Below, in pieces: positions 34,646 to 62,158 of a stretch of DNA of 64,000 nt. Made by a program: the position numbers and the translations under genes. The stretch comes from Alteromonas naphthalenivorans (GTDB lineage Bacteria; Pseudomonadota; Gammaproteobacteria; Enterobacterales; Alteromonadaceae): the NCBI RefSeq assembly GCF_000213655.1, contig NC_015554.1, positions 1,178,001 through 1,242,000 on the forward strand, in the 5' to 3' direction. The notes below the pieces were generated by a model. The model made no database searches and was not told where the DNA came from. It saw only the letters and a list, made by a program, of their open reading frames with translations. Each line of letters starts with the position of its first letter. Within the stretch, counting starts at the first letter, position 1.

Positions 34646-35902
34646 ATGGATAAACAAACCATGGGGGCATGGATAGTACACCATGGCCGAAAAATTAATG
34701 ACAACACAAATGTGGCCGCGGAATATGGCGCTATAGACATTGCCGCGAAGTCCGCTTCGTTGCTGTCTAGAATGGCTGCGTCTGATCAAGATGAATTAAG
34801 CAATGAGCTTGTTATAACCTTAGGCAAGGTTGGTGGCTTGAACCCCAGAACGGAATTAAAGGCTTGTCTTGAAGAGTTGAAGAAGCAAAAAGTAATTGAT
34901 GTTGCCAACAGCGGTGCCGTATCAGTATTGGGGATTACTACAAATAGTGCGCTTTCTCATGCTACAGATATGTTCAATAGAAACGCCCCTGACTCCCATG
35001 AAAACGCTGTGTTAGATTTGAGTGAAAAGGTGTCTCAAGCGCCAATTAATAGAAAGCTTGCTTCGGAATACATTTCAGATATTCATAGGTTGCCCAATAG
35101 TGAAGTTAGTGAGCTAATCACTCAAGCGTCAACTATTGGTTTTATCGATAGTGATTCCGATGACGATGATCCTCTACTTTTTAACGGAAACCTCTTTAGA
35201 AGAGATACTGTTTCGAAATCTCAAAAAATTTTGAGCTCTTTGAATTCAACTGAACAGAGTTCGTTAATAAACTTCAACGAAAAGCTCAAGTTACAAGGTG
35301 CGGTACATATTAAAGTTGCTGAAAAAATCTTAGGTCAAACACTATTATCAAAATTGAGAGCAGCAGCGTTTTTTGATGAAAATGTCGTTTCAAATGAGGC
35401 TGGAGATCACAGTTTTATAACATCACCTTCTTCTTTTCATAAGTTTAGTAATCCTATGTTGGATGATGCATTTGACCACGCAAAGGCACTGGTTTCCGCA
35501 CTATGTTATGGCGTGTCTGTAAGTTCATCCTCCAGAGGTCGTATATGGGGTGTTGAGCTGATCTTGGGCAAATTAATTCGAGGGGGGACAGTAGGGCCTG
35601 TGCCCGCAATTGGGAAAGATTATAGAGCTTTAGAACTGGAGAGAGTGGTTAGGATAATAGCTGGGAACTATGGTTTTTCAATGCAACTTCTTAAACGAGA
35701 GGTTGGTGAAATTGCCCTACAAGTTTTGCAAAACGGTTCTGCTAACAATACAGTTCTAGAAAATGTTCCGAGTGCGCAAGTAACGGCTTACATAGGACCT
35801 GAAGCTGCAAGAACAAGGTTTAAAAAGAAAAAGAGCATTCAGCCAAGTAGTTCACAAATGAGAACACTACTGAGTTCAGTAAGAAGTGGAGGTGGTCTCT
35901 AG
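34646..35902 (+). CDS. Unrecognised protein, first gene of a two-gene putative defence operon
   Basis: The 418-aa protein has no motif I recognise. It looks cytoplasmic: no signal peptide and no membrane segment. The N-terminal third (residues ~20-115) is helical with a possible winged-helix-like stretch (GGLNPRTELKACLEELKKQKVIDV). The centre has an acidic patch (SDSDDDDPLLF near 170-180). The C-terminal half has a conserved-looking region (SRGRIWGVELILGKLIRGG...RALELERVVRIIAG). The tail is basic (RFKKKKSIQPSSSQMR). AAGGAAATAAG precedes the ATG. The stop overlaps the next start (TAGTG), so the two are translationally coupled. Function unknown; a sensor or partner for the nuclease-like neighbour is inferred. 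Confidence 0.6.
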   Translation: MDKQTMGAWIVHHGRKINDNTNVAAEYGAIDIAAKSASLLSRMAASDQDELSNELVITLGKVGGLNPRTELKACLEELKKQKVIDVANSGAVSVLGITTNSALSHATDMFNRNAPDSHENAVLDLSEKVSQAPINRKLASEYISDIHRLPNSEVSELITQASTIGFIDSDSDDDDPLLFNGNLFRRDTVSKSQKILSSLNSTEQSSLINFNEKLKLQGAVHIKVAEKILGQTLLSKLRAAAFFDENVVSNEAGDHSFITSPSSFHKFSNPMLDDAFDHAKALVSALCYGVSVSSSSRGRIWGVELILGKLIRGGTVGPVPAIGKDYRALELERVVRIIAGNYGFSMQLLKREVGEIALQVLQNGSANNTVLENVPSAQVTAYIGPEAARTRFKKKKSIQPSSSQMRTLLSSVRSGGGL

Positions 35903-37023
35903 TGACTAGTAAAGGGTTTAAAACCGAAGAATTAATGAGGAACTATTTTCTCAAAGCTGGATTTTTCGTCGTTCGAGGTATCAATGTGCAAGTAAAAGAA
36001 CTTGACTTAACAGATGCAGATTTATGGATATACGAGAGGTCAGCTACGTTCGCCAGAAGACGGACAATTATAGATATCAAAGATAAAAAAAGACCCCAAG
36101 CTGCAGAAAGAATGTTTTTTGTAAAAGGCTTGTCCGAAGTTTTAGGTGTAGAAGGCGCAGGTATTGTTACGACTGACAATAACCCAGTATTACGAGACTT
36201 AGCCAGAAGAAATAAAATTCTCTGGATTGATGGAAATGATGTTCAGAGAATAAAAACTAACAAATTTATAGAGTCTATTGATCGGTTGTCTGAAGAAGAG
36301 TTTTTACAATCTGTAGATGAACTAGATCAAGTTAGGGGGGGGAAAGCGTATCGTCATGGCTTTGAGAAAATGAAAACTGCTTTGGGCGATCGGTTTGGTA
36401 TTTCTTCTGCGAATATAGCACTAGATAATTTTGGACAGTTCGCTAGAAGTGCTACAAAAACCCATCCAAATACTGAAAGCGCCAAAAGTCTGATCAGATT
36501 AAGCTATTACACTGCATCTATAGCTGCAATTTCTTTAGATTTTAGTTCAGCTGACACTGCGTTGAGACCTTCAGATGAGAGGCTCAAACATATGTCCAGC
36601 GCTATTAGGTATGGTGATGATCAGACCGAAATTAATAATAAAATGATGTGGTTAGAATTGGCCTTGAATAGTGTTGAGAACGGGTCATCAGTATTTAACC
36701 AAGTCAATAGAAAGTTTCGATCTGAAGCTGAAAGTATACCGGCTGAGGATTTAGCTCAGATAGTGGTCAAATATAGCAGTTCTGATACTCTATTTGAGGT
36801 TGCCAGAACTCTTGAACAAGCAGCTTTCGATAGACACTTGGCAAGTTTTGATGATCTACCTATACCTGTGAAAAGCTTTTTGGGCGCTCTTCTTGATTTT
36901 TCAGGGTGTTCCAGAGAGGTATTTTCAAAGGTAATATCTCCTTCTGAATATTTCACTAACTCTGGAGATAATCGAGTTGGTGAAAAACAGATGCAATTCA
37001 AAATTGAAGATGAAGAAAAATAA
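35902..37023 (+). CDS. PD-(D/E)xK nuclease-like protein, second gene of the two-gene operon
   Basis: The 373-aa protein starts with GTG overlapping the previous stop. The first ~110 residues look like a restriction-endonuclease fold: FKTEELMRNYFLKAGFFVVRG (helix with Glu), LTDADLWIYE (Asp) and RTIIDIKDKKRP (D-x-K), then a GAGIVTTDNNPVLRDLARRNKILWIDGND strand-helix as in Mrr/PDDEXK families. The remaining ~260 residues are helical and unrecognised (LIRLSYYTASIAAISLDF, MMWLELALNSVENG). A DNA-cleaving effector is a reasonable inference from the fold; specificity is unknown. No methylase is nearby, so it is not a classical restriction-modification pair. Confidence 0.65.
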   Translation: MTSKGFKTEELMRNYFLKAGFFVVRGINVQVKELDLTDADLWIYERSATFARRRTIIDIKDKKRPQAAERMFFVKGLSEVLGVEGAGIVTTDNNPVLRDLARRNKILWIDGNDVQRIKTNKFIESIDRLSEEEFLQSVDELDQVRGGKAYRHGFEKMKTALGDRFGISSANIALDNFGQFARSATKTHPNTESAKSLIRLSYYTASIAAISLDFSSADTALRPSDERLKHMSSAIRYGDDQTEINNKMMWLELALNSVENGSSVFNQVNRKFRSEAESIPAEDLAQIVVKYSSSDTLFEVARTLEQAAFDRHLASFDDLPIPVKSFLGALLDFSGCSREVFSKVISPSEYFTNSGDNRVGEKQMQFKIEDEEK

Positions 37024-38306: not shown

Positions 38307-38531
38307 ATGAATTTTAATGAAGTAAACGAAGTTGCTCAGCTAAAAGCTGAAACCAAACTAATTGCCAGGAAGAGAAAGAAATCTTCAAAGCTCGATGTTC
38401 ATCGGTATCAGTTATGTAAACTTTTTCATGCCGGTGCCACAAAAGCAGAGCTGCAAAGGTGGTTGATCAAAAAAAAGGGGATGCGTGTCGATTGGACCAC
38501 TGTAAAACGATGGCTTGATAAAAATGCCTAA
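38307..38531 (+). CDS. Small basic helix-turn-helix-like protein, partner of the recombinase
   Basis: The 74-aa Lys/Arg-rich protein looks helical with a likely DNA-binding helix-turn-helix (LFHAGATKAELQRWLIKKKGMRVDWTTVKRWL in parts). Its end overlaps the tyrosine recombinase start by 17 bp, so they are one transcript. It may be an accessory DNA-bending or regulatory factor for that recombinase; that is inferred from position. Confidence 0.6.
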   Translation: MNFNEVNEVAQLKAETKLIARKRKKSSKLDVHRYQLCKLFHAGATKAELQRWLIKKKGMRVDWTTVKRWLDKNA

Positions 38532-39402
38532 GTTTGCAAAAGCCAGTACGCAGGCTCATAACGTCATAAAGGCGCTAACAAAGACTGAGAGAATACAGTC
38601 TCTTGGAACAGCTAGAAACTACGAAGATGCCCTGAAAAGGGTTTCTTTTTGGGTTAAGGAAAAAAAGCTTAATGGCTTGCAATCATTATCATTAGAACAA
38701 GCACGGTTTTACCTTGAGTATCGCGCCGAGAGTGTAGGGCAAAAAACACTTGATATGGAACGTCAGGCCTTGCAAGCGATGATGCAGCTAAATGGTAGAC
38801 TACCTGATAACGGTAAGCTCTATATCGTCAAGTCAGAATTAGCTGAAGCAACACGGTCCAGGGCGTATACTAGAAAACAAGCCGAGGCCGTATCTCAAGG
38901 GCAATCGTCTAAGCATAGTCTGGCAACACAAATCGCATACGCCGCTGGGCTACGTGCTCATGAGCTTTTGACATTGGCCAGAAACGACGAACGGGAACCT
39001 GATAGACGAAAAGCATTGAGTTCTAAATGGGATGGCCGTTCAGGCTCACTTTACACAGTTGTGGGGAAGGGAGGGTTAAAGCGGCACGTGCTTATTCCTA
39101 CAGCCTTAGTCAATCAACTTGAACAGCGCAGACTCAAAAGCCCTGTAACTGTCACTGACCGTCAAATAAAGTACCTACAGCGTTATGATATTGGTGGTGG
39201 GAAAAAATGGTCCGATTCCTTCAGTAAAGCTTCAAGTAGAAATTTGTATTTTTCAACTGGGGCACATGGCTTGCGTCATAGTTACGCACAGGAAAGGATG
39301 GTTGAGTTGAAAGCATTAGGCTATAGCAGAGCTATAGCCCTGGAGACAGTATCTCAGGAAATGGGACACTTTAGGCCGGAAATAACCGAGGTATATCTTT
39401 AA
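38515..39402 (+). CDS. Tyrosine recombinase, ending just after the catalytic Tyr
   Basis: The 295-aa integrase-family protein has a SAM-like N-domain (residues ~15-100) and a catalytic domain with R (AAGLRAHELL), K (GKGGLKRHV), HxxR (HGLRHSYA), H (MGHFRPEIT) and the tyrosine in EVYL. The stop comes one residue after the Tyr-Leu, shorter than usual. A diverged copy of its last ~25 codons lies at 41640-41744 beyond a three-gene module, with the longer ending. It is not the P4-type integrase of the island and probably belongs to a nested element. Confidence 0.82.
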   Translation: MIKMPKFAKASTQAHNVIKALTKTERIQSLGTARNYEDALKRVSFWVKEKKLNGLQSLSLEQARFYLEYRAESVGQKTLDMERQALQAMMQLNGRLPDNGKLYIVKSELAEATRSRAYTRKQAEAVSQGQSSKHSLATQIAYAAGLRAHELLTLARNDEREPDRRKALSSKWDGRSGSLYTVVGKGGLKRHVLIPTALVNQLEQRRLKSPVTVTDRQIKYLQRYDIGGGKKWSDSFSKASSRNLYFSTGAHGLRHSYAQERMVELKALGYSRAIALETVSQEMGHFRPEITEVYL

Positions 39403-39471
39403 AACATTATTTAAATGAGAAAACTATATTTAACTTGCAATATCAATCAAACTTTGAGCTAATGTGTTCGT

Positions 39472-39483
39472 TGTTCGCGAACA
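39472..39483. promoter_or_regulatory. Palindromic operator-like site before the wHTH/NTase/PP2C operon
   Basis: TGTTCGCGAACA is a perfect 12-bp palindrome, 22 bp upstream of the GTG start of the winged-helix gene. Autoregulation by that protein is inferred. Confidence 0.5.
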
Positions 39484-39504
39484 GAAAACATGTGAGGGCT
39501 TTTA

Positions 39505-40218
39505 GTGCTAAAAAGTCAAGATATATTAGTTACATTAAAAATTTTAGGGTTTGAGGAGTACAGCGAGGCGACCAAGGTCACAACCATGCGGCTACAGGGT
39601 AGGGCATGGTTAGACCTAAATGAGTCGGCCGAAATCGCAAGCTCGTACGACCTTGACAATGATGAGCTGGTTGTAAGTGATGAACCAGATGACTTTGAGC
39701 AAAAGGACCTCGAAACTATAAGAGATTATTTAGGCCAGTTCGAAGCAACTACTAGCACTGGTTGGACATATCGCAGTCTTGCTAAACAACTATTCATATC
39801 CGTTAGCGAAGCAAACCAGTCAGTAAAGCGGTGCATAGCCGCTGGGTTGCTATATCAAGTAGGACGTGGACCCGTTCGAACGAATCGTCCAGTTCTCTAT
39901 AACTTCATTAGATATGGTGTTGGGGTATCTTTCTACGCAGAAAAAGGAAAGGTAGCTAGAGGTATTCCAACTTCTATTGCAGCACCAGCATTTAAAACAA
40001 GATTTTTAAGCTCTGATATGCCTCCAGTTTGGCCCTGCGCAAGAGGGACAGTGAAAGGAGTAGCAATCCCCCCAATTTATAAATCCGTGGTAAAAGCTGT
40101 GATGATAGATAGTTGGTTATACGATCAACTGGCATTAATTGACATTTTTAGAATAGGCACCGCTAGAGAACGAGAAGAGGTGTTACCGCTACTGGATAAT
40201 TTGAGAGTAAAGAAATGA
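39505..40218 (+). CDS. Winged-helix protein, probable antitoxin/regulator of the NTase module
   Basis: The 237-aa protein starts at GTG with GAGG 8 nt upstream. A winged helix is seen near residues 88-120 (TYRSLAKQLFISVSEANQSVKRCIAAGLL). The C-terminal part (YKSVVKAVMIDSWLYDQLALIDIFRIGTAREREEV) resembles regulators that pair with AbiEii-like nucleotidyltransferases (type IV toxin-antitoxin style). The stop overlaps the next gene's start (ATGATG). DNA binding and an antitoxin role are inferred from fold and context. Confidence 0.65.
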   Translation: MLKSQDILVTLKILGFEEYSEATKVTTMRLQGRAWLDLNESAEIASSYDLDNDELVVSDEPDDFEQKDLETIRDYLGQFEATTSTGWTYRSLAKQLFISVSEANQSVKRCIAAGLLYQVGRGPVRTNRPVLYNFIRYGVGVSFYAEKGKVARGIPTSIAAPAFKTRFLSSDMPPVWPCARGTVKGVAIPPIYKSVVKAVMIDSWLYDQLALIDIFRIGTAREREEVLPLLDNLRVKK

Positions 40219-40919
40219 TGCAGGCAACAGAACACGAGGCGATGTTGATGGCCGTGGCGTCAATGTTAGATGAAGGGTTTCTTCGTGAAATTACTTTCGT
40301 TGGTGGTGCTACGGTATCTTTACATTTGGATAATGCGCAGCCGATTGATATTAGTAGCACTAAAGATGTGGACTTCATCGTATCGGTTGCAGGCTACAGT
40401 GGTTATGACGAATTAAGCGCAAATCTGAGAGGAAGAGGATTCAAAAATTATATACCACAAGGTGATGAAAACGTACCGTTGTGCAGATTTGTGTGTGGGG
40501 ATATATGTGTAGATGTCATGCCTGATGATGGGCAAGTTCTCGGTTTTAGTAATGAGTGGTTCAAGGCATGCCAAAAGCACAATATTGACTATCAATTACC
40601 GAATGGAGTCACGATTAGAATTGCAGAAACAAAATATCTGTTGGCAACGAAATTGGTTGCCTTCGCCTCTCGGGGAGAGGACATGTTATCAAGCAAAGAT
40701 GCAGAAGACATTGTACTCCTTGTTAATGGAAAGGATTCACTAGTAGACGAAGTGGTAGAGGGCCCTGAGGATTTGAAGATATTTATTCAAGATGCGATGT
40801 ACAAATTTATACAAAATTCGGACTTTGAGTATGTTTTGTCGAGCAATTTACAAAATGAAGAAGTTGAAAGGCAAGAATTGATACTGAGTAAATTTAATAC
40901 ATTAGCAGGACAGGAATAA
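40215..40919 (+). CDS. AbiEii/MNT-like nucleotidyltransferase
   Basis: The 234-aa protein has the pol-beta nucleotidyltransferase signature: FVGGATVSLHL near residue 28 (GG...S-type helix), SSTKDVDFIVS (paired acidic residues) and, about 60 residues later, ICVDVMPD (third carboxylate). The C-terminal helical part contains IAETKYLLATKLVAFASRGEDMLSSKDAEDI, typical of the AbiEii/DUF1814-like families where Lys and Asp follow the active site. Such enzymes add nucleotides to tRNA or protein and often act as toxins. It is between a winged-helix gene and a PP2C-like gene in a tight operon. Confidence 0.72.
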   Translation: MMQATEHEAMLMAVASMLDEGFLREITFVGGATVSLHLDNAQPIDISSTKDVDFIVSVAGYSGYDELSANLRGRGFKNYIPQGDENVPLCRFVCGDICVDVMPDDGQVLGFSNEWFKACQKHNIDYQLPNGVTIRIAETKYLLATKLVAFASRGEDMLSSKDAEDIVLLVNGKDSLVDEVVEGPEDLKIFIQDAMYKFIQNSDFEYVLSSNLQNEEVERQELILSKFNTLAGQE

Positions 40920-40922
40920 GCT

Positions 40923-41606
40923 TTGACTGAAGTATTAGTAATGCAAACAGGGGCAGGTTCTATAGAATCAGTTAATGCAGATTTTGTGCACAGTTGGGCT
41001 ATAGAGGAGGGGCATGCATATCTAGTATGTGACGGTATTGTTCATACAGAAGAAACAAGAGAAGCGGTCATTGAGTTTGCGGAAAAACTTAGCGCAGAGG
41101 ATTGGTGCTACGTCAATGATAGAGAAATGCAACTTTCAGGTAACGTGTTAAAGGCTATAGACTGTATGTCTCCTCATCATGATGGGCGAGCATTTTGTTG
41201 CTCAATAATTCTCATTTTTGACGGATACTATGTCGCAGGATGGTGTGGAGACTGCCGAATAGGTAATGTGACATTGAGTGCTCTTGAATGGTTAACCACA
41301 GATGATGTGCCGTTTTTAAAAATGTACCAGGATGGGGTAATAGATTACGAATTTTATTTAAAATCAAGACACTTATTATCATGCAAGTTGAAAGTAGGTC
41401 AAAATAATATAGGATGCGTAAAAACCTTTTCAGGGACGCTGGCTAACTGTAAGAACCTTATTCTCTGTAGCGATGGATTTTGGTCGGAAGTCAATTTGCT
41501 AAATGAGTCAATCAGAGAACACTTTTCTGTTGAGATCTCAAATGAAGTGAATAGGCTAGCCCGTGACGGTATAGATAACTTCAGTGTTATAGTGCTGGAT
41601 GTTTGA
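40923..41606 (+). CDS. PP2C-like protein phosphatase
   Basis: The 227-aa protein starts at TTG (AGGA 7 nt upstream). It keeps the PP2C metal-site order in reduced form: SWAIEEGHAYLVCDGI (first Asp), AGWCGDCRIG (GD-x-R-x-G), LILCSDGFWSEV (SDG) and the terminal DGIDNFSVIVLD (DN-S). The usual GxGG of motif 2 is missing, and several cysteines replace common residues, so activity is uncertain. Third gene of the module, 3 bp after the NTase stop. A phosphatase coupled to a nucleotidyltransferase suggests signalling or reversal of a modification; that is inference. Confidence 0.68.
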   Translation: MTEVLVMQTGAGSIESVNADFVHSWAIEEGHAYLVCDGIVHTEETREAVIEFAEKLSAEDWCYVNDREMQLSGNVLKAIDCMSPHHDGRAFCCSIILIFDGYYVAGWCGDCRIGNVTLSALEWLTTDDVPFLKMYQDGVIDYEFYLKSRHLLSCKLKVGQNNIGCVKTFSGTLANCKNLILCSDGFWSEVNLLNESIREHFSVEISNEVNRLARDGIDNFSVIVLDV

Positions 41607-41639
41607 AAGCACAACTGGGTAAAATCGTTATTAGAGCAT

Positions 41640-41744
41640 AGTAGGGCTGTAGCCTTAGAAACAGTATCTCAGGAAATGGGCCATTTGGGGCCGGAAATTA
41701 CACAGGTTATGTGTAAGGATTCAAAACGTTACTTGCAGAAATAA
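41640..41744 (+). pseudogene. 3'-end fragment of a tyrosine recombinase gene
   Basis: 35 codons in frame read SRAVALETVSQEMGHLGPEI, then TQVMCKDSKRYLQK and stop. They match the recombinase end at 39328-39402 (SRAIALETVSQEMGH...) at most positions, with a longer tail. No upstream part is present, so this is a remnant, not a gene. It overlaps the 3' end of the convergent helicase gene. Confidence 0.82.
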
Positions 41745-43110
41745 CAACAAGTTTTTTGCGGCATCTCGTCAAAGCTACATACAGATGCTTCGGAGATTGA
41801 ATCTTATGAGCGTCAAGCACGACAACAACATCAAACTCTAAACCTTTTGTTAGTAACGTTGTTCCAACGTGCTTTCCCTCCACTCTTCTACCAAGCCTCC
41901 TTATGTTGTTTCTTTGCTCTCTCATTCCTACTAATACAGAGGTGTTATTTTTAACTGATAGCTCAATAGCTTTTGAAATTGAACGGAGTAGTTCCTTGCG
42001 AGAGCAGTAAATATTCGGTAAACCTTCAATCTCATTAAGAATTTCGATTACATCGTGCAGTGAATCTAAGTTCGCGACTAGCTTCTGAAGGATTGTAATT
42101 CTCTTTTTGGAAGACTTATCTTTTTTATTTTTAAAGCCCTTTTCATTGAACCATTCATTAACACCTGTTTTGTTAAAGAGCTCTAGTGAAATGTTTCTTA
42201 TGTGGGGTAGCGGATTCTGTAAATTAAATTTGTCCAGTGATTTTGCTAGGCTATAGAAATCACTGTCGTCAATACTCTCAAGCAAGCGAATATCTTTAAA
42301 CCTCTTCGAAAATTTGATTCTTGGCTGCTTATTCATTGAATTGGGGTGTATTACCAATAGGCTATCTTCGTCTCTTAACGAGTTGAGGGCACGAACATAA
42401 TCTGACTTGAATTTATAAAAGTCTTGTTCACTAGCAATTGTAACTTCAATCGATTCCTCGAAGTTTCTCAGATCGATTGGTTTACCGTTTTCAAGGTTTT
42501 CTCTTATTTCCGCAAGTGCCAAACCTAGCCCTTCTGCACCAACCTGATTCCATCTGTGTGGAACATCTAATGTGGGAAAGGTTTTGAAATCAGCAAGATC
42601 TTCATCGAAGTTCACCAACTCCCCATTAAAATCAAAAATACCTTGAAGCGGGTCACCTAAAACCCTTGTTGGAAAGAGCTCTATGAGCTTTCTTATCATT
42701 GAGTGTTGTCCGCGAGAGCAATCTTGGTATTCATCCACGAAGACACCTGAATATGTTGCTAGTAAGACATTCTTTATTTGGGGGGTTGAAAGAATTTTGG
42801 CTGCTTCACTAATGATAAAAGGGTAGTAATTGGTGGTATCTTCTTGAAGAGGTTTCTCATCGCCTATATAGAAAGACTCTACGTACCGTTGTGCAAAGCT
42901 GGTTATCGTTTCTACAGAATAACGACGGGAGTGAATTGCCGCACTTTTTAACTTTTGTTTAATTGAAGCAATACCCGCATGGGTATGGGTGAGTATTAGG
43001 CTTTTCCCTGTAGTGAATTCTAGGCATTTAGCAAGAGTATGTGTTTTACCATATCCTGCAGGGGCTACGAGAAGTGCTTTTTCACAGTTTACGAAATTTT
43101 CATAATCCAT
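41707..43110 (-). CDS. UvrD/GajB-like helicase
   Basis: The 467-aa SF1 helicase has motif I VAPAGYGKTHTLAK, motif Ia TLTHTHAG-like, motif II FVDEYQDCSRGQ, motif III LGDPLQGIFDF, motif IV-like VPHRWN, motif V TKGLEFDVVVVLDA and motif VI YVALTRCRKKLVVIS. It is short for a UvrD protein, as GajB of the Gabija system is (about 494 aa). It starts 3 bp after the stop of an OLD-family nuclease gene, which fits the Gabija GajA-GajB pair. In Gabija, GajB is thought to use DNA ends or nucleotide depletion signals to activate the nuclease complex. Confidence 0.82.
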   Translation of the reverse strand: MDYENFVNCEKALLVAPAGYGKTHTLAKCLEFTTGKSLILTHTHAGIASIKQKLKSAAIHSRRYSVETITSFAQRYVESFYIGDEKPLQEDTTNYYPFIISEAAKILSTPQIKNVLLATYSGVFVDEYQDCSRGQHSMIRKLIELFPTRVLGDPLQGIFDFNGELVNFDEDLADFKTFPTLDVPHRWNQVGAEGLGLALAEIRENLENGKPIDLRNFEESIEVTIASEQDFYKFKSDYVRALNSLRDEDSLLVIHPNSMNKQPRIKFSKRFKDIRLLESIDDSDFYSLAKSLDKFNLQNPLPHIRNISLELFNKTGVNEWFNEKGFKNKKDKSSKKRITILQKLVANLDSLHDVIEILNEIEGLPNIYCSRKELLRSISKAIELSVKNNTSVLVGMREQRNNIRRLGRRVEGKHVGTTLLTKGLEFDVVVVLDAHKIQSPKHLYVALTRCRKKLVVISASNVLNPYT

Positions 43111-43113
43111 GGG

Positions 43114-44811
43114 TTAGCCAATCCATTTGTCTAGTTGACTCAAAATTTTATGAAGATGGGTGCCGTTCATGTTCTCAAAATATTTGAATATCACTTCACC
43201 AAGCTTTTCGCCATGCCCAACTCTTTTGAACCATTCCTTTTGTTTAGTAACGGATACCTTAGCTAGAGCTGACCTCACTTCTGGTGTGTCAGCCTGTCTC
43301 CAGTTTTCAGGGAACTCTCCAGGGTATTTTGCTTTTACAGATGCCAAAAGAGATTCATCAGTTTTATTATGTACTTTGAGAACGTAATTGATTAATTCAT
43401 CAATTGCTTCCCATGGAAGATCATTGAAGCATTGGTCCTCAAATGAGTTCCCATCCTCACATTCAAAAATAGAAATATTCTCGGCGAGCAAATCTTTCTT
43501 TTGCGGCTTTAAATCTTGGTCAGTATCAGAGTCACATAACACAGATACTTCTAGCCCAGCTTTCCGAGTATTTAATGCTCTATCCGTAAATGAGTGCCCT
43601 GTGCCGTCCACATAAGCGCAACCGTTGAAGGTCATTGGTTCTCGCCCTTGTTTCAGCCTAAATACATCTAAGGCCCTACATACCCCAACCTCTGTAGCGC
43701 CCTCACAAACTATAACCTTTTGAGAAAAGAACGCATCAGGACAAGCTCGAATTAACCCTTGTAGACCACTGTTATCTACATCTAGAAAGCTTGATCTTAC
43801 TTCTCCAGAATTTCTATTCACGCAAACCACAGAAAGATCTTTGGCTTCAAGTTCTACTGCTACCTCACGCGAATGACTAGTAATTATTACTTGCCCTTTG
43901 TTCTCGTCTTTTAAAGTTCTAGCTACTTGTCGGACCCTATCGGGTTCTAGACCCTGTTCTATCTCGTCAATCAGAACTATTCCACCTTCCCTCGAAATAG
44001 CTGTTTGAATTGCCATTGATGCCAGGCGCTTTGAACCTTTGCCCATAAGCCTAAAAGGGACGTCTTCTTTGTGTAAGCTCACTTTACCCTCATGGAGGTT
44101 AATATCTTTAAAATCTATCGTCGTTTGGACCTCTTCGAGATTTAACCCAAAACCTACAGCTTGCTTTTGAATAGCTTCCATTACGCCACTGTAATGTGCG
44201 TAATCAGCTTTATCGATTTTCTCCTTCGCTTCACGAATTGCATCTAATACGATTTTTTTCTTTGGCGCTTCTGACGTATGTACTTTTAAAAGTGAGTTTA
44301 ACGGGCTTCCTTTGCTCCAAGAAAAGTGTCCATCTATAGAGTCCGACACCATGAAGCAGTTAAACTTTGAACGGTCATTCGCAGAGATACTAATCTCATT
44401 TTCCGCTCTACCATTTATAACTGTCCAACTAGGTTCTAAATCACTACCAACAGTGAGTTTCACCGTTAAAACAGTAATATCACCTTTGGTAATATCGTCA
44501 GTAACTATCCCTGTGTCGCGGCATAGTGTTCTTATCCATAGTCCATACTTATGTTCAGCTAATAAGCTTTCGGGTATAGAGGCGATGGAGGCAATAATCT
44601 CAATAGGGTTCTCTGAATTAAGTTTAAAAAAATCAGTATCGTAAAACGAGTGATTCCATAAGGGAGAAAGAACTGCCTTAATAGCATCTAATATAGTTGT
44701 TTTTCTACTGTCTCCCCGTCCTAAAAAACAAATAACTTCTCGATTCAATCTTTGGTGATATGACGATATGCCTCGAAAGTTTTTTATCTCAAGTTCAACT
44801 ATTTTTGCCAT
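43114..44811 (-). CDS. OLD-family ATP-dependent endonuclease, GajA-like
   Basis: 565 aa from the ATG at 44811, chosen for the AAGGACAAGGGA site just before it; an in-frame ATG at 44883 overlapping the upstream gene is less likely. The ABC-type ATPase has EIKNFRGIS, Walker A GRGDSRKTTIL, signature MGKGSKRLA, Walker B GIVLIDEIEQGLEP and H-loop ITSHSRE. The TOPRIM domain has VIVCEGATEVG and LCDSDTDQD. Length and order match GajA (about 578 aa). The Walker A has Arg where Gly is canonical before Lys. With the UvrD-like gene it forms a class 2 OLD/Gabija-type pair. Confidence 0.83.
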   Translation of the reverse strand: MAKIVELEIKNFRGISSYHQRLNREVICFLGRGDSRKTTILDAIKAVLSPLWNHSFYDTDFFKLNSENPIEIIASIASIPESLLAEHKYGLWIRTLCRDTGIVTDDITKGDITVLTVKLTVGSDLEPSWTVINGRAENEISISANDRSKFNCFMVSDSIDGHFSWSKGSPLNSLLKVHTSEAPKKKIVLDAIREAKEKIDKADYAHYSGVMEAIQKQAVGFGLNLEEVQTTIDFKDINLHEGKVSLHKEDVPFRLMGKGSKRLASMAIQTAISREGGIVLIDEIEQGLEPDRVRQVARTLKDENKGQVIITSHSREVAVELEAKDLSVVCVNRNSGEVRSSFLDVDNSGLQGLIRACPDAFFSQKVIVCEGATEVGVCRALDVFRLKQGREPMTFNGCAYVDGTGHSFTDRALNTRKAGLEVSVLCDSDTDQDLKPQKKDLLAENISIFECEDGNSFEDQCFNDLPWEAIDELINYVLKVHNKTDESLLASVKAKYPGEFPENWRQADTPEVRSALAKVSVTKQKEWFKRVGHGEKLGEVIFKYFENMNGTHLHKILSQLDKWIG

Positions 44812-44864
44812 TCCCTTGTCCTTTGTTTTGACTTTTTTAATAAACGATGAATATGAATCACTTA

Positions 44865-46754
44865 CTAATAATAGGACGCGCACACTCTATCTTCTAGATA
44901 GCGTTCCCATGCTGGCTTTATAAAATCAGATAATGACTGAATTTCGTAGTCACTGAGCGCTGATTTTTCTCTTAATATAGCGCATAGTGATCGCAGTGAA
45001 TGGTCCATAAACCCTGATGTTGGAAACACTTTTTTATCTTTAGAGTTTATTAAACAAGTAATACCGTCATAAACCTTTTCATCATTCAGTCCTAACTTTC
45101 CTCTTATATACGAGCTTTCATATGCTGGCATGTTTTCTGTTAAATGCTGGCAAGCTTTTAAGACGTCAACTATCATCATTACCTCAATGAGGACGTTCGA
45201 CTTATAGATGGTATAGTGACTTTGAAGTGTGTTTGCCAAGTCCAGAGCTTCCGAAATGTTTGATACTCTTAGACCAATATTTCTGTTGGAAGTGTTTGCA
45301 TATGAAATACAAATATCAGTTAGCGTTCTGTATTTTGTTTTTTTTCTTTTGAAATTTAGAAAGCTAAGAGAACTTTTTCTTTTGCTTTTTCTATTTTTGT
45401 ACCAGTCGTATACTCTTGGGAACAGATAGTCTAAAAGCCAATTATGTGAATATTCTGCGTCCCAGGCATCTCTAGATGAGTAGGTTAGGGGCTCGCCAAC
45501 AATGTCTGTCAGTGGCTGCCAACAAAGAAATAGGTCAGTTGAGTAAACACGCTCACTAGAGTAAGGGTACATAATCAGATGGAAACCTCGAGATAAACTT
45601 AGTGTTTCATCCTTTACATATATTTTTAGACACCCTGGAGCGTTATCGAAGATATGATGCTCGGTATTTCCCTTTGCGTAGTCGAATTCATAGGAATACT
45701 GAATAATTGCCTGCCAAAACCATAGTTCAATGCTAAAAAGTTTGAATGCGAAATGATCTTCTTTTAGTAAGTCAAATCGAGCGGTTTTCCATTTCTTCTC
45801 TATACTCGTAGCCTCTGATATGTATCTTTTCCAAGCCTCAAAAATCACCCAGTCTAAGTCATTTGATTCGTTGTTATTCAGAGTTAATCTGACCGTTGGT
45901 AAAACCAAAATATTAAGAGAGTTTCCAGTGTTAAGGGTTTGTATGAGTGACGTTTCTTTTATATGTGAAGCGTGAGCTCTTTCCTGCATGAATTTGACTA
46001 GTGCCTTCCCATCGCAAGAAATTGTAACGCCATTCAAGTCTGATCTTGTAAATGATAATGCTGCGGTCAAATTCGGCTTTTTCTCAGTGGGTAGAAATAC
46101 TTCCAGTCTTACACTATCATTTTCAATAATCGCCAAATTATCAATACACAGACTCTTCTTCTTACTATAAGAGTAGGGGTATTTAATTGGTAAAGGTAGT
46201 GAGGTGCAAAATCTGTTAGCAGCTTCTAGACCATAGTATTTCTCGGTTATTCTTCGAGCTTTTCGCAATTTTTCTAGAATAACGTCGTAATCCCATAATG
46301 TAGGAATGATTTTGTGTTCTTCGAGTTTTCTTTCTGCCATGTGCCAAGACTCTACTAACTTGGTGTGGCTACTTATCGAATAAGAAGTGCACAAAACGAA
46401 CTCTTGATAGCTCTCTATATCCGATTCAGAAATAAATTTTTCTACCCAGTCTGTAATATTTTTTGGAGAAACCCTTTTATATCTTTTGCATTGTGCAGCA
46501 ACTTTTTTACTTGTTCTGAGATCGAGGCCTACAATGTCGAGCCCATACTGTGATTGACCTCTAGAACCATACAACAAGAACGTTCTGACGCCACTAAGAT
46601 CTTGCTCATCTTGCAATAATTCTAAGCAGATTTTTTCGAATATTTCCCAGTCTTTTGTTATCGGAAGAGATTTTAAAAGAGAATCGTAAATAGGGTATGA
46701 GTCTTTCTCTTTCTGTTTAAGAATATCTGATGGGTCTACTTCTTTACGAATCAT
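44865..46754 (-). CDS. Mrr-like nuclease-domain protein preceding the Gabija-like pair
   Basis: The 629-aa protein has an Mrr/PD-(D/E)xK domain at residues ~35-130: WEIFEKICLELLQDE, then SRGQSQYGLDIVGLD (catalytic Asp) and KVAAQCKRYKR (Q-x-K), then FVLCTSYSISS. The other ~480 residues are unrecognised; they hold an aromatic, His/Trp-rich middle (WFWQAIIQYSYEFDYAKG) and a Lys/Arg-rich patch (KNRKSKRKSSLSFLNFKRKKTK). The stop is 53 bp before the OLD nuclease start on the same strand, so it is the first gene of a three-gene operon. Canonical Gabija has only two genes; the added nuclease-like gene is unusual. Confidence 0.72.
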   Translation of the reverse strand: MIRKEVDPSDILKQKEKDSYPIYDSLLKSLPITKDWEIFEKICLELLQDEQDLSGVRTFLLYGSRGQSQYGLDIVGLDLRTSKKVAAQCKRYKRVSPKNITDWVEKFISESDIESYQEFVLCTSYSISSHTKLVESWHMAERKLEEHKIIPTLWDYDVILEKLRKARRITEKYYGLEAANRFCTSLPLPIKYPYSYSKKKSLCIDNLAIIENDSVRLEVFLPTEKKPNLTAALSFTRSDLNGVTISCDGKALVKFMQERAHASHIKETSLIQTLNTGNSLNILVLPTVRLTLNNNESNDLDWVIFEAWKRYISEATSIEKKWKTARFDLLKEDHFAFKLFSIELWFWQAIIQYSYEFDYAKGNTEHHIFDNAPGCLKIYVKDETLSLSRGFHLIMYPYSSERVYSTDLFLCWQPLTDIVGEPLTYSSRDAWDAEYSHNWLLDYLFPRVYDWYKNRKSKRKSSLSFLNFKRKKTKYRTLTDICISYANTSNRNIGLRVSNISEALDLANTLQSHYTIYKSNVLIEVMMIVDVLKACQHLTENMPAYESSYIRGKLGLNDEKVYDGITCLINSKDKKVFPTSGFMDHSLRSLCAILREKSALSDYEIQSLSDFIKPAWERYLEDRVCASYY

Positions 46755-53482: not shown

Positions 53483-56400
53483 GTGAAATGGAGTTTCTTA
53501 AACATGGCATCCTCTATCCAGCAAAGTAACTTTGGGTTTCTACAAGAGCATGATTCACTTTTAGTGGAAATTGCCTCCTCTGCTGAAAAAGCCTTCTCGA
53601 GCGATCCTAACACAACGTTAATGAAGCTTAGGCAACTGGGTGAGGCGCTGGCACAACACATTGCAGCATTGGTTGGAATTGAGTTTGACGATAAGACTTC
53701 CCAGGCTGATTTAATCTACAAAATAAACCGTGAGTTACAGCTAGAGCCGGTAGTCAGAGAGTTATTCCATACTCTTAGAATGGAAGGTAACAAAGCAATC
53801 CATACGTTTAGAACTCAGCACAAAGAAGCCATGAATGGTTTAGTGGTTGCACGTAAACTAGCCATATGGTTTCACCAGTCTTTCGGAAAATCAGGGGTTC
53901 AATTTAAACCTGGCCCTTTTATTCCACCTACAGACCCCAGCGAACAGTTACGTCAGTTACAGTCTGAAATTGCAAAGTTAAAAAGTGATTTAGAACAAGC
54001 CAATGTTGACTTGGATTCCAGTAATCAACTTCATGCGCTCGTAGCTAAAGAAAAAGCAGAGTATGAAGTATTGGCAATGGCAATGGACGAGGAATCTCGA
54101 TCTTTGGCGAAGCAAGCGTCTGAACATGAAGATGCCTTACAAGCACAACGTAAGGATTACGAAACAAAAATAAAGGCACTTCAAGCTCAGCTAGCGGCGG
54201 CTGATGAGAAAACGCAAACTGCCCAACGCAGTCAGATAAACAAAAATACACAGGCGGCAACGCAACACATTGTGTTGGATGAAGCGCTAACCCGCATTTT
54301 AATCGATCAGCAACTGTTAGAAGCGGGTTGGACAGCCGATAGCGAAGCGCTTACTTATAAAAGTGGGGCTCGACCAGAAAAAGGCAGGAATATCGCTATT
54401 GCTGAATGGCCTACTGAACATAATGGCGAAAAAGGTAGAGCAGACTATGTACTGTTTTACGGTTTAACGCCCATGGCCGTGGTTGAGGCGAAGAAAGAAA
54501 ACACCAACGTTGCAGGAAAAATTTCGCAAGCGGAACGATATAGCAAGGGTTTTAGTGTTTCACCCCCTATGCTGGGCGCATGGGATTTAGCAGGTTTAAC
54601 AATTGCCTGGCCTGATGAACAAGAAAGCCATTATAAAATCCCGTTTGTTTATTCTTGCAATGGTCGCCCTTACGTTCCTCAGCTGGCTGAACAGTCTGGA
54701 ACCTGGTTTCGTGATGTGCGGGAACCTGCCAATATTAAACGTGCACTCCCTAAGTTTCATACGCCAGAAGGCTTAATCGACAAACTCAAACGCAGTAAAG
54801 AAGAGGCTGAGAAAAAACTAAAAACTGAGCCATTCGGCTATTTAAAAGTTCGCGATTATCAGCAAAAAGCCATTATTGCGGTGGAAAATACGCTAGCGAA
54901 AGAAGTACGCACGGCGCTGTTAGCTATGGCTACCGGTACGGGTAAGACGCGCACCATCATTGGTTTGATGTACCGGTTTCTAAAGGCTGAGAGATTTAAG
55001 CGTATTCTATTTTTGGTAGATCGCACCGCACTTGGTCAGCAAGCCATTGATGCTTTTAATGAAGCACCACTAGAACAAAACCATACCTTATCTAAAATCT
55101 ATAATGTTGCAGAGCTGGGAGATATGGCTGCTGAGGCTGAAACGCGTGTGCAGGTAGCAACTGTACAGGCCATGGTAAAGCGCATATTTATGAGCGATAA
55201 CCCGCCACCGTTAGACCAGTTTGATTGTATTATTATTGATGAAGCCCACAGAGGGTATACGCTCGACCAGGAAATGACCGAAGGCGAAATCGCTACGCGG
55301 GATGCGAGTCAGTATCTTTCCAGTTACCGCCGGGTGCTCGACTATTTTGATGCCGTCAAAATTGGCTTAACGGCAACGCCAGCAAAACACACCAGCGAAA
55401 TTTTCGGCACACCTGTTTATACCTATTCATACAGGGAAGCGGTAGCGGATGACTGGCTAATAGATCACGAACCACCTATTCGATACGAAACATTACTCAC
55501 GCAAAACGGGATTAAATTTGCCAAAGGTGCCGAAGTTAGTGCCATTAACACCCAAACTGGTGAAGTACAAAGTGCAGAGCTAGACGATGAACTTAATTTT
55601 GAAGTGGAAGCTTTTAATCGCAAAGTAATTAATGAAAACTTCAACAAAGTGATTTGTCAGCAACTGGTTCAAGAACTCGATCCGTTCGGGGATGAAAAAA
55701 CTCTGATTTTCTGCGCAACCGATTTGCATGCCGATATGGTAAAGCGACTTTTAGACGAAGCGTTTAAAGACCTTTATAACGGTGAATATAACCAAGCGGC
55801 AGTGGCTAAAATCACCGGGCAAAGCGACAAAGTAGAACAGCTCATTCGACAGTATAAAAACGAACGCTATCCAAATATTGCTATTACTGTAGACCTACTG
55901 ACCACCGGTATCGATGTTCCCAAAATTTGTAACCTCGTTTTTATGCGGCGGGTTAAATCACGGATTTTGTATGAGCAAATGATTGGCCGTGCTACCCGCC
56001 GCTGTGATGACATTGGTAAAACGGTATTTCGAATTTACGACCCGGTGGATATTTATGCCGCGTTGGCCGATGTTAATACCATGAAGCCATTGGTTAAAGA
56101 TCCCAATATTACGTTGGAACAATTGGTACACGAAATCACTAATCCGCAACAATTGGAACGCGCGTTGAATGCACCCGGTGATGCGCCTGAGCAAAGCCAT
56201 GCTGATGTGGTGTTAAGTCAACTCAGTCAAAAAGTGATGCGCGTAATGCGAAAGGCCGATAAAAAAGCCGAGAGCAAACCAGTACTTAAACAAAAACTTG
56301 ATGAATTATAGGGTTTATGGGGCGTCGAGCCCAAAAGCCTGCATAAACACTTACACGAGCTTGGGCCTAAGCTAGCTGCGGCTTTTATTACAAAACATAG

Positions 56401-57025
56401 CGGTTTGATAAATCAGTTGGCAGAAGTGAATGAGTTACTCGGCAGTGAACGCCAGCCTATAATTTCTGAACATCATGATGAGATAAGAGAACGCACCCAA
56501 AGCTACGGTGTACATCAAAAGCCAGAAGATTATCTGGACAGCTTTAACCAGTTTATAAAAGAGCAGCTTAACCAAAGTGCAGCTCTTGCGGTAGTGGTAA
56601 ATAAACCTCGAGATCTGACTCGCGACCAACTAAAAGAAATTAAACTATTACTTGATGGTGCAGGATACTCAGAGGCTAAACTACAAAGCGCTGTACGCAA
56701 CCAAACTAACCATGATATTGCAGCAAGCATAATTGGCCATATTCGCCGCGCAGCATTCGGCGAGCCATTGGTACCCTTTGAAAAACGTGTTGCACAGGCT
56801 ATGCTGCGAATATTTGAAAGTCATAACTGGTTACCTGCACAGCGCAAATGGCTTGATCGCCTGGCAAAACAACTGGTTCACGAAGTCATTGTTGATAGAG
56901 AATTCGTAAACAGCCGATTTGCAGAGCAGGGCGGAGCAAAGCAGCTGGATAAAGTACTGGGTAACCAGCTGGATACAATACTGGATGGACTGAGTGATAC
57001 AATTTGGCCTTCCCAAAGTGCATAA
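53483..57025 (+). pseudogene. hsdR: Type I restriction enzyme R subunit, split by an amber codon
   Basis: The R subunit drives ATP-dependent translocation and cutting. The N-terminal region (DUF4145-like, then HSDR_N with IAEWPTE...GRADYVLFYGLTPMAVVEAKKE) holds the nuclease site (D...E-A-K). SF2 helicase motifs follow: ATGTGKTRTIIG, DEAHRGY, LTATPAKHT and ITVDLLTTGIDVP, MIGRATRR. The frame stops at TAG 56309-56311 after KLDEL. The same frame continues with GLWGVEPKSLHKHLHELGP and the C-terminal EcoEI_R_C region to 57025, totalling ~1180 codons. A CAG-to-TAG change would explain it. Starts at 53483 or 53504 are both possible. Confidence 0.88.
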
Positions 57026-57054
57026 ACTTTATATGTATAAGTAAACAGAAAAAC

Positions 57055-57080
57055 TATACATGTTATAAAGTACATGTATA
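57055..57080. promoter_or_regulatory. Operator-like inverted repeat before the Fic gene
   Basis: TATACATGT (57055-57063) and ACATGTATA (57072-57080) form a perfect 9-bp inverted repeat with 8-nt spacer. TATACAT recurs at 57096-57102. It lies in the short hsdR-fic gap, so the fic gene probably has its own regulated promoter. Confidence 0.55.
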
Positions 57081-57141
57081 ATTTTTTGCAAAATCTATAC
57101 ATATACAGTTCTAAATGTATAAAAAGGACATAATATTAATC

Positions 57142-58221
57142 ATGACTGCATCTATCCCATTGTTACCACTTGATAATATAGAGCAGTGGGAAACCCGCGC
57201 AGTACTCAAAAAAGTGGCTGAAGCTCACCGATATCTGGCCGAATTAAAGGGTGTTGCCGCCAGCATTCCCAATGAAGCAATACTAATCAATACGCTTGCC
57301 TTACAGGAAGCAAAAGACAGCTCGGAAGTGGAAAACATTGTAACCACGCATGACGAGCTTTATAAAGCTAACTTATTTGAAGAAGCCATTACTAGCCCTG
57401 CAACCAAAGAAGTGCAGGATTACGCAGTAGCATTAAAGCTGGGCTTTCAAGCAGCACGGCAAAGTAAACTCATTCGCTTAAGTGACATCCTTGCCATCCA
57501 GCAAAACCTGGAGCACAACAACGCAGGCTTGCGAAAGCTACCCGGTACAGATTTAAAAAATGCTCGTACGGGGGAAGTAGTGTACACCCCGCCACAACAT
57601 GCAGACGAAATAACGGCGCTAATGGATAACTTGGTGCAATTTATTAATAACGATGAGTTATGCGATGCAGACCCGCTGGTAAAAATGGCCATCATCCATC
57701 ATCAGTTTGAAAGCATTCACCCATTCTACGATGGCAATGGCCGCACAGGGCGGATCCTGAATATTTTGTACTTGGTGGTTAAAGACTTGCTTAACCTGCC
57801 AGTACTGTATTTAAGCCGTTTTATTATTCAGCACAAAGCAGATTACTATAATAATTTGCAGGCCGTGCGTGATACCGGTAACTGGGAACCCTGGATAGCC
57901 TTTATGCTTGGTGGCGTTATCGACACAGCGCAAAACACAATTTCACTCATTACCGAAATGAAAAGCCTGATGGCTAATGTGAAACACGGTATTCGTGAAC
58001 AATTGCCCAAAATCTATAGCCAGGACTTACTCAACAACTTGTTTCATCACCCCTATACCAAAATCGATTTTATCATCGAAGAGCTAGGGGTAACGCGAAT
58101 AACCGCTACTAAATATTTAGAGCAACTAGTAGAACACGGCTTTTTAACCAAACAAAAAATTGGCCGCGCCAACTACTACATTAATGAGCCGTTGTGCAAA
58201 GTACTGATAGCACACAGTTAA
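57142..58221 (+). CDS. Fic-domain AMP-transferase with inhibitory motif and winged helix
   Basis: About 359 aa from the ATG at 57142 (MTASIPLLPLD); AAGGA lies 13 nt upstream, while the earlier ATG at 57115 has none. The Fic core HPFYDGNGRTGR is intact. An N-terminal inhibitory helix motif SSEVEN fits (S/T)xxxE(G/N), so it is a class II self-inhibited Fic protein (Fic_N). The C-terminus has a winged helix (IIEELGVTRITATKYLEQLVEHGFL). It transfers AMP to a target hydroxyl. It sits between hsdR and hsdM, a recurring position for Fic genes, and may watch over the restriction system. Confidence 0.88.
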   Translation: MTASIPLLPLDNIEQWETRAVLKKVAEAHRYLAELKGVAASIPNEAILINTLALQEAKDSSEVENIVTTHDELYKANLFEEAITSPATKEVQDYAVALKLGFQAARQSKLIRLSDILAIQQNLEHNNAGLRKLPGTDLKNARTGEVVYTPPQHADEITALMDNLVQFINNDELCDADPLVKMAIIHHQFESIHPFYDGNGRTGRILNILYLVVKDLLNLPVLYLSRFIIQHKADYYNNLQAVRDTGNWEPWIAFMLGGVIDTAQNTISLITEMKSLMANVKHGIREQLPKIYSQDLLNNLFHHPYTKIDFIIEELGVTRITATKYLEQLVEHGFLTKQKIGRANYYINEPLCKVLIAHS

Positions 58222-58249
58222 GAACCAAATTATTAATTAAGAGACACAC

Positions 58250-59859
58250 ATGACAAATAACGATATCGTTCAAAAACTCTGGAACCTCTGCGACGTGCTG
58301 CGAGACGACGGCATTAATTATTCAGATTATGTAACCGAGCTGGTACTTCTGCTATTTATTAAAATGGTGCACGAAAACACAGAAGCGGGAGTATTAAAAC
58401 GCCATCCTTTACCAGGGGGATGTCGTTGGACAGACATCAACGAAAAGTCGGGTATTAATCTGCTAAATGACTACAAACGCATTCTATTAAGCCTTTCAAC
58501 AGGTAAAGATTCAGACGGCAATATTGTGCACGAAGACCACTTATCAGTGCAATCTACGCCGATGCACAAACTCGACTGCGTGAACCACGCCATCTAGAAC
58601 AAATGATCAAAACCCTCGACCATATTGATTGGTTTAGCGCCCAAAAAGACGGGCTAGGCGATTTGTATGAGGGGCTTTTAGAAAAGAACGCTTCGGAAAC
58701 AAAATCCGGGGCAGGTCAGTACTTCACTCCACGTGCGCTAATCAACAGCATGGTGCGCTGCATTAAGCCGCAAGTTGGCGAAGTGATACAAGATCCAGCG
58801 GTAGGCACAGCTGGATTCTTAGTTGCCGCCGACCAGTATATGCGTGAGCAAACTGATGATTACTTAGAACTTTCTGCTAAAGAAGCTGATTTCCAGAAAA
58901 ACAAAGCTTTCGTTGGCGTTGAACTGGTACCTAATACCCGACGCTTAGCGTTAATGAATTGCTTACTGCACGGAATGGAAGGCGACGAAGAGGGCGTAGT
59001 GCACTTAGGAAATGCACTAGGCGATGCAGGGAAGGAGTTAAAACAAGCTGATATTATATTGGCAAATCCGCCTTTTGGTACCAGTAAAGGTGGTGAAGCA
59101 TCCAATACCAGAGACGATCTCACTTACAAAACTACCAACAAACAACTGGCGTTTTTACAGCATATATATCGCAACTTAAAACCTGGTGGCCGGGCGGCAG
59201 TCGTACTGCCGGATAACGTACTGTTTGAAGCCGGTGTAGGTACCGATGTTCGCCGCGACCTAATGAATAAGTGCAATCTACACACTATTTTACGCCTGCC
59301 AACGGGTATTTTTTATGCTCAAGGCGTAAAAACCAACGTTCTGTTTTTTACTAAAGGTTCTGCAAAGGACAAACACCAGGAAGAAAACTGCACTGAAAAT
59401 GTGTGGGTATATGACCTGCGCACAAACATGCCCAGTTTTGGTAAACGCAGCCCCTTTGGTAATGCAGATATTGGCTTTACACTCGATGAATTTGGTAAAG
59501 ACCTGCACCTAGGTGCTTTTGAAAAGGTCTATGGCGAATCTTCAGATGGCATAAATAGCCGAAGTGAAGGTGAATACAGCTTTGGTGCACAAGACATTGA
59601 AGTAGACAAGGAAGTCGTTGAGGAAAACCAAGGTATTGATGAACGTCTTGCGCACTCCCGCTGGCGCTGCTTTAGTCGTGGGTGGATTCGCGAAACGAAA
59701 GGCGATTCTTTAGATATTTCCAGGTTAAGAGATAAAGACAGTATGGATGCGGCGGATTTGCCTGAGCCAGATGTTTTAGCTCGAGAAGCTAAAGGTGAGC
59801 TGGAAGAGGCGCTAAAGGAAATTGATGCGTTATTGGTAGCTTTGGAAGGTGCGAGCTGA
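58250..59859 (+). pseudogene. hsdM: Type I restriction-modification methylase subunit, frameshifted
   Basis: HsdM makes N6-methyladenine at the site set by HsdS. The first frame (58250 to ~58535) has the HsdM_N domain (NDIVQKLWNLCDVLRDDGINYSDYVTELV in pieces). A one-base loss near 58535-58537 shifts to the second frame, where PLISAIYADAQTRLREPRHLEQM continues into the methylase domain: DPAVGTAGFLVA (SAM motif I) and NPPFGTSKGGEA (NPPF motif IV). The total is ~536 codons, normal for HsdM. Restart at 58603 would give a protein without the N-domain. Confidence 0.88.
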
Positions 59860-62079: not shown

Positions 62080-62158
62080 GCTTGAATGGTATCGTTCAAT
62101 TTATACTCATTTTTGTCTATCCAGTAGGTGTTTTTAACCGTTATCCTTTTCATTTTTG

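Follow-up and report, generated by a model that had tools for sequence, protein, structure and literature searches.

A phosphatase gene beside an AbiE/MenAT-like gene pair of Alteromonas naphthalenivorans points to a possible built-in on-switch for the putative toxin

What does a phosphatase do when its gene stands directly behind a likely toxin-antitoxin pair? The question is raised by three genes, called A, B and C here, in a stretch of 64,000 nucleotides of Alteromonas naphthalenivorans (contig NC_015554.1, positions 1,178,001 to 1,242,000; hereafter the window, whose own numbering is used throughout). An original prediction, made from these letters, had described a tightly spaced module of a winged-helix protein, a nucleotidyltransferase and a PP2C-like protein, and the open reading frames (ORFs) bear out this anatomy, which is near certain, with A and B overlapping by 4 bp and a gap of 3 bp between B and C. 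The parts of the module are the following:

39505-40218, + strand: gene A (PDC-M21A), GTG start, 237 aa, winged-helix protein whose residues 17-88 form an acidic insert, a putative repressor that would also serve as antitoxin
40215-40919, + strand: gene B (PDC-M21B), ATG start, 234 aa, AbiEii/MenT-type nucleotidyltransferase and putative toxin, with Thr49, D51, D53, D100 and K146
40923-41606, + strand: gene C (PDC-M21C), TTG start, 227 aa, predicted PP2C-type phosphatase with metal ligands retained
39435-39463, + strand: promoter-like pair, -35 TTGCAA (39435-39440), 17-bp spacer and -10 GCTAAT (39458-39463), an 8/12 match to consensus and a consensus match only
39465-39490, no strand: putative operator of 26 bp, four half-sites (TGTTC twice, then GAACA and AAACA) in 7-bp steps, holding a palindrome at 39472-39483

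All three proteins match, adjacent and in the same order, the models of the phage-defence candidate PDC-M21 (PADLOC-DB 2.0.0; PDC-M21A 9.2e-44, PDC-M21B 9.5e-63 and, weakly, PDC-M21C 2.7e-8), and the trio is therefore already catalogued in PADLOC, though uncharacterised, and is not new as a set. PDC-M21 itself is a catalogue entry only, and its name was not found in the PMC literature searched. PDC families are candidates from guilt-by-embedding (PMC12988326); PDC-M21 is a defence candidate by genomic association, and an anti-phage role is a candidate role only. Observed directly at this locus and its relatives are the gene anatomy, the operator, the core A-B pair, two alternative phosphatases and the kept catalytic residues. 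The phosphatase beside the pair, and an unrelated one at the same position in distant relatives, point to a switch built into the operon, one that may activate the toxin by taking off a phosphate.

The B protein of the window matches the PADLOC AbiEii model (9.5e-8), and 43 of 59 aligned B proteins match Pfam AbiEii at E<=0.01, the window B itself scoring 0.015, below the Pfam cut-off. Its AlphaFold model (pLDDT, the predicted local distance difference test, of 93.5) has as closest folds in the PDB MenT1, including the T39-phosphorylated form, and then 5uvd, MenT3, ANT(2'')-Ia, JHP933 and MenT4. Across the family G30, G31, D51 and D53 are kept in 110/110 rows (one row being gapped) and D100, K146, R153, D162 and D165 in 111/111, and position 49 is Thr in 109 and Ser in 1 of 110 rows. 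B combines in this way the MenT fold, the DxD motif, the catalytic Lys and a Ser/Thr two residues ahead of the first Asp, the phospho-acceptor position of MenAT1 and MenAT3 (TakA-TglT, M. tuberculosis), and is an AbiEii/DUF1814 nucleotidyltransferase. As in AbiE, a winged helix-turn-helix gene precedes a DUF1814-type nucleotidyltransferase gene and an operator lies at the promoter. The likeness to type IV pairs that had been claimed for A and B is thus upheld: the pair looks AbiE/MenAT-type and is likely a toxin-antitoxin pair.

Nucleotidyltransferase toxins of the MenT/AbiEii type are widespread, and for two of them phosphorylation of a Ser/Thr in the active site is the reported off-switch: under the action of MenA1, MenT1 phosphorylates itself at T39 and becomes inactive, and MenT3 is argued to behave likewise at S78 with MenA3 (PMC11375011). 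Reversal of the toxin phosphorylation, the on-switch, has been assigned to an 'unknown phosphatase', and the PP2C enzyme PstP is reported to act slowly and unspecifically (PMC7205606); the word 'phosphatase' has 0 occurrences in the main text of PMC11375011. The suggestion of the original prediction that the PP2C-like protein could reverse a phosphorylation controlling the nucleotidyltransferase would agree with these findings on MenT toxins, and a phosphatase does recur as a partner of the pair. Unlike MenAT1 and MenAT3, which the papers examined present as two-gene systems, the operon of the window has a third, phosphatase gene. In the scheme that follows, the toxicity of B and its neutralisation, the addition and removal of the phosphate, and the target and trigger are all inferred. 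A would bind the four-half-site operator beside the -10 box and repress the operon, as the sequence suggests, and would hold B inactive, as the co-conservation of A and B suggests. Once the antitoxin is bound, B would probably be driven to place a phosphate on Thr49 in its active site and so switch itself off, as reported for MenAT1 and MenAT3, if the equivalence of residue and fold is a guide. C, acting as a metal-dependent PP2C phosphatase, would remove the phosphate and re-arm B, and the re-armed B would modify nucleic acid (probably tRNA) or protein, so that growth would stop; in another branch a calcineurin-like metallophosphoesterase stands in place of C. As a best guess, held tentatively and at clearly less than even chances, we put forward this scheme, in which A represses and also neutralises B partly through Thr49 phosphorylation and C takes the phosphate off again so that B becomes active once more, and the step in which a phosphatase activates the toxin is, taken singly, possible rather than probable. 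The broader proposal, that a built-in phosphatase undoes antitoxin-induced active-site phosphorylation, that PP2C and calcineurin-like folds were both recruited for the step and that this supplies the 'unknown phosphatase' of the MenT/AbiEii field, is possible but doubtful. A phosphatase gene travelling with the toxin gene, of two unrelated kinds according to lineage, makes the re-activation question directly testable with three small genes.

That C is a phosphatase is predicted from its profile matches to bacterial PP2C structures over most of its length (6ihl, 6.4e-9; 2j82, 1.7e-8; and others) and to the Stp1 model (1.4e-7, far below the model's cut-off). The partly lost motifs of the original prediction were confirmed for the motif I Arg (SVNAD) and the GG after DG (CDGIVH), both gone from the window protein, whereas the four metal-binding Asp, D20, D37, D184 and D218, are kept in 45, 46, 46 and 45 of 46 aligned C proteins. 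The GD at 109-110 is also present, and the metal Asp and the GD each stand in 45 or 46 of 46 proteins, the two misses being gaps. C therefore resembles the PP2C phosphatases Stp1, tPphA and PstP in its profile matches and metal Asp, and differs from them in lacking the two motif elements just named and in having GDC in place of the canonical PP2C motif GDS, a change found in 44/46 C proteins. In six loci (L052, L075, L082, L090, L091 and L099) a calcineurin-like metallophosphoesterase, matching PF00149 in three of the six (1.7e-11 to 1.2e-13), follows A-B directly instead of PP2C; PADLOC models matched 0 of the 2 such proteins scanned. PP2C and calcineurin-like enzymes are unrelated phosphatases, and they occupy the same gene position in different branches. 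No literature report of the metallophosphoesterase variant, of the operator or of the phospho-switch reading was found in the searches made, which is limited evidence.

The distribution of the two phosphatases was followed in the best 80 of at least 504 genome loci plus 3 viral loci, a choice by which the 80-locus set leans to relatives of the window, and in an even class-wide sample of 369 genomes, where 41 had a B match and gave 30 loci (our own included; 11 weaker matches without loci were left out, and 1/14 control genomes matched). A adjoins B in 82/83 loci of the first set, the sole miss being at a contig end, and C is found by profile in 47/83; among the 29 new class-wide loci, A is present in 28, PP2C in 0 and a metallophosphoesterase in 3. 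Loci L107 and L115, with a split or partial B, were excluded from the 111-row B tree and from the residue counts, and L020 was scored as PP2C on a 50-residue remnant alone. The tree came from a quick search, with 40/107 inner branches below 80 in the Shimodaira-Hasegawa-like approximate likelihood-ratio test (SH-aLRT) and supports of 94 and 99 read after midpoint re-rooting. Every one of the 49 PP2C rows falls within a single group of 64 rows, while the 47 rows outside that group comprise 6 metallophosphoesterases and 0 PP2C, and the six metallophosphoesterase rows fall in a group of 9. Parsimony requires 7 changes for PP2C compared with 36.3 when labels are shuffled, and 4 compared with 5.9 for the metallophosphoesterase (equally low in 1/500), and on these counts a single origin of each phosphatase linkage is likely. 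Absence of the PP2C gene from most homologous loci, which the original prediction had named as telling against it, is what we found for the A-B family as a whole (49/111 rows with PP2C, remnants counted, and 0/29 other class-wide loci), and is not what we found in the window's own group (49/64) or in its taxonomic family, where B occurs in 5/196 genomes (own included) and 5/5 have A, B and C; no B was found in seven other listed genomes of the genus. These figures also bear on a rival account, an ordinary toxin-antitoxin pair whose phosphatase gene is carried along without a functional link. It draws on the 56/111 rows of the wider family linked to neither phosphatase, a count that also weighs on the switch, but C lies right against B or overlaps it in loci of both Gammaproteobacteria and Alphaproteobacteria, the labels are clustered on the tree as above, and a second, unrelated phosphatase occupies the same place, so that we consider such a passenger very unlikely.

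The loci that have lost C speak to its role. Within the PP2C group 15 rows lack C, three of them cut by a contig edge (L018, L066 and L089), which leaves 12 and, by parsimony, at most about six events. In 7 more loci (L005, L020, L033, L034, L035, L053 and L074) C is split, truncated or a remnant, sequencing error being possible in single cases. At these loci B has nearly its full length, and A is whole in every case in which the contig runs far enough to include it; L004, whose C ends 90 bp before the contig end, was counted neither as intact nor as broken, and in L007 the frame of C is open and only its start had been mis-called. No complete locus without A was seen. With C lost or broken beside B and A in no case seen missing from a complete locus, the pattern suggests that A is the neutraliser and that C is dispensable for survival, a behaviour that an activator or modulator would show but a sole antidote would not. 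The same loci touch another possibility, that the product of B is a protein or RNA carrying an added nucleotide and that C strips this nucleotide off, which would make C a second antidote or an enzyme that resets the target. Such de-nucleotidylation is favoured by the PP2C-like fold of SidD, by the nucleotidyltransferase-like domain of SidM and by the ability of metallophosphoesterases to cleave phosphodiesters. The AMPylation and de-AMPylation of Rab1 by SidM and SidD is a precedent (PMC13327609). However, some loci with a complete B have lost C or hold a broken copy of it, so that C is not needed to survive B, and the closest relatives of B with known targets, MenT1 and MenT3, extend tRNA ends, a reaction that no PP2C enzyme is known to reverse; we regard this role of C as unlikely.

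Several findings weigh against the scheme put forward above. The phospho-mechanism is not universal, as no phosphorylation was observed for MenT4 (PMC11375011). Conservation at the place of Thr49 does not single out C, because a Ser/Thr is also kept there in C-less loci and in other proteins of the DUF1814 superfamily (PMC11375011, Discussion). Ser47 of the window B (residues 47-49 are encoded at 40353-40361) aligns with R76 of MenT3, which contacts the phosphate, and this position is Arg in 108/110 rows, Ser being present also in several close relatives. A is not recognisably AbiEi by sequence: 0/57 A members match an AbiEi model at E<=0.01, and no AbiEi (COG5340) chain is among the 33 PDB profile matches of A. 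Sequence and structure comparisons of A gave winged-helix matches only. A differs in sequence from the AbiE antitoxin, the presence of a third gene being a further difference from AbiE, and it differs also from the antitoxins of the two Men systems, MenA1 being of 7.4 kDa and MenA3 AbiEi-like. Finally, the presence of C goes together with that of an insert in A, a hint that A may be the protein on which C acts.

This last point deserves detail. The acidic insert (39553-39768) lies inside the winged helix, and the predicted model of A (pLDDT 87) has a weak stretch at residues 21-60 with block means of 56-62. Inserts of at least 20 residues occur in 47/48 PP2C loci and in 8/62 others, those 8 all being inside the PP2C group, compared with 0/47 rows outside it; the inserts are acidic (23% D/E versus 12% across the whole of A), and W-x-x-W is found in 32/55 long inserts (shuffle mean 2.7, maximum 8). 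C might then act on A and not on B: the insert might receive a phosphate from a kinase of the host or of a phage, or might serve as a docking site for C, and in either case C would set the strength of A's repression of the operon or of its hold on B. The association may, however, be one of common descent, as it is not significant over the 3 independent pairs (median p 0.5); the W-x-x-W motif, moreover, occurs in each of the 8 loci that have a long insert but no C, 23/47 loci with C lack it, and A inserts at metallophosphoesterase loci measure only 6-12 residues. We judge an action of C on A improbable and keep the dephosphorylation of B by C as the preferred reading.

For the repression that A would exert, the upstream palindrome of the original prediction is present, TGTTCGCGAACA at 39472-39483, but taken alone it is weak evidence, because the window holds 30 perfect 12-bp palindromes and the 4.97-Mb genome has this very 12-mer at two positions. 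The palindrome is central to the full site, TGTTCG-T-TGTTCGCGAACA-G-AAAACA at 39465-39490, in which four 5-bp half-sites follow one another in 7-bp steps with dyad symmetry and which has a single occurrence in the genome at <=3 mismatches (window expectation 0.00). The AbiEi operator has a different layout, a pair of inverted repeats of 23 bp with 3 bp between them (PMC7319586). When 13 palindromic pairs and 6 direct-repeat positions were scored within 120 bp before A in 110 loci (L107 included), a score of at least 14 was reached in 83/110 loci compared with 8/2200 shuffled sequences (46/63 in the PP2C group and 37/47 in the others). Four other loci of the same family have operator-like sites scoring 13-15/19, and such a site is also present in a Pseudoalteromonas plasmid copy. 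The half-site type depends on lineage (TGTCC, TGTTC, TATTC, TGTTT and others) and is mostly uniform inside a single operator, and in the 82 rows listed the third residue of the recognition stretch of A (V100 in the window) is Lys with all 41 consensus-TGTCC operators and one CGTCC, and in 0/40 of the remainder; because both traits follow the tree, this agreement may reflect one ancestral change. Among promoters scoring at least 8/12, the last base of the -10 box falls anywhere from two bases ahead of the operator to the operator's own first base in 37/71, a count without a shuffle control. An operator of four half-sites whose type tracks a recognition-helix residue offers a simple readout of derepression of the module.

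The module is flanked by the following parts:

38307-38531, + strand: flanking small gene of 74 aa whose end runs into the recombinase gene, probably outside the module
38515-39402, + strand: tyrosine recombinase gene, flanking, probably the carrier
41628-41708, + strand: remnant that aligns, also at the DNA level, with the 3' end of a recombinase gene of this kind

The recombinase duplication was correctly recognised originally, with 27 codons of the gene's end recurring in the remnant (74% identity, E 3.8e-5). Relatives of the recombinase are found in 161 plasmid records, the best 12 rows being plasmids of 4.6-21 kb in Vibrio, Shewanella and Klebsiella. Downstream, on the - strand, lies a Gabija pair, GajB at 41707-43110 (PADLOC 8e-136) and GajA at 43114-44883 (2.6e-172). 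The description as a discrete cargo, here beside defence genes, fits this window, but the 146 neighbour genes from 44 other loci gave no clear defence context, in a count made without a control set. The same facts divide over the possibility that C is an infection or stress sensor, hydrolysing a small phosphorylated signal or a host or phage phosphoprotein and controlling the pair indirectly: the module is a catalogued defence candidate adjoining Gabija here, and C is tightly linked yet dispensable, whereas the neighbourhoods elsewhere give no clear sign of defence and no ligand-binding domain outside the PP2C fold exists in the intact copies of C that were checked (223-251 aa). A sensor of this kind appears distinctly unlikely to us. 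Were a role in defence confirmed, the phosphatase would be a candidate for the trigger step.

Some further neighbours were noted. Apart from the two phosphatases, the sole neighbour seen to recur close behind A-B is an hsdM-like gene of type I restriction-modification, read by eye in L031, L037, L042 and L096, and also in L030, L058 and L108, and PADLOC type I methyltransferase models matched 3/146 neighbour genes. In the window, an overlapping 629-aa gene follows GajA on the - strand (to 46754) with a sub-threshold Mrr-type nuclease match (2.3e-4), and two overlapping genes of 418 and 373 aa at 34646-37023 have no significant match in Pfam, NCBIfam or PADLOC. Type I restriction-modification-like genes and a Fic-like gene were read by eye, and not by family search, at 53483-61397, where the modification subunit consists of two adjacent ORFs (58250-58597 and 58603-59859). 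The genes at 62156-63719, and those at 8051-9613 of L121, are presumably IS21-like transposase genes, judging by the sequence, and ORFs with identical protein starts sit near the second recombinase copy of the genome.
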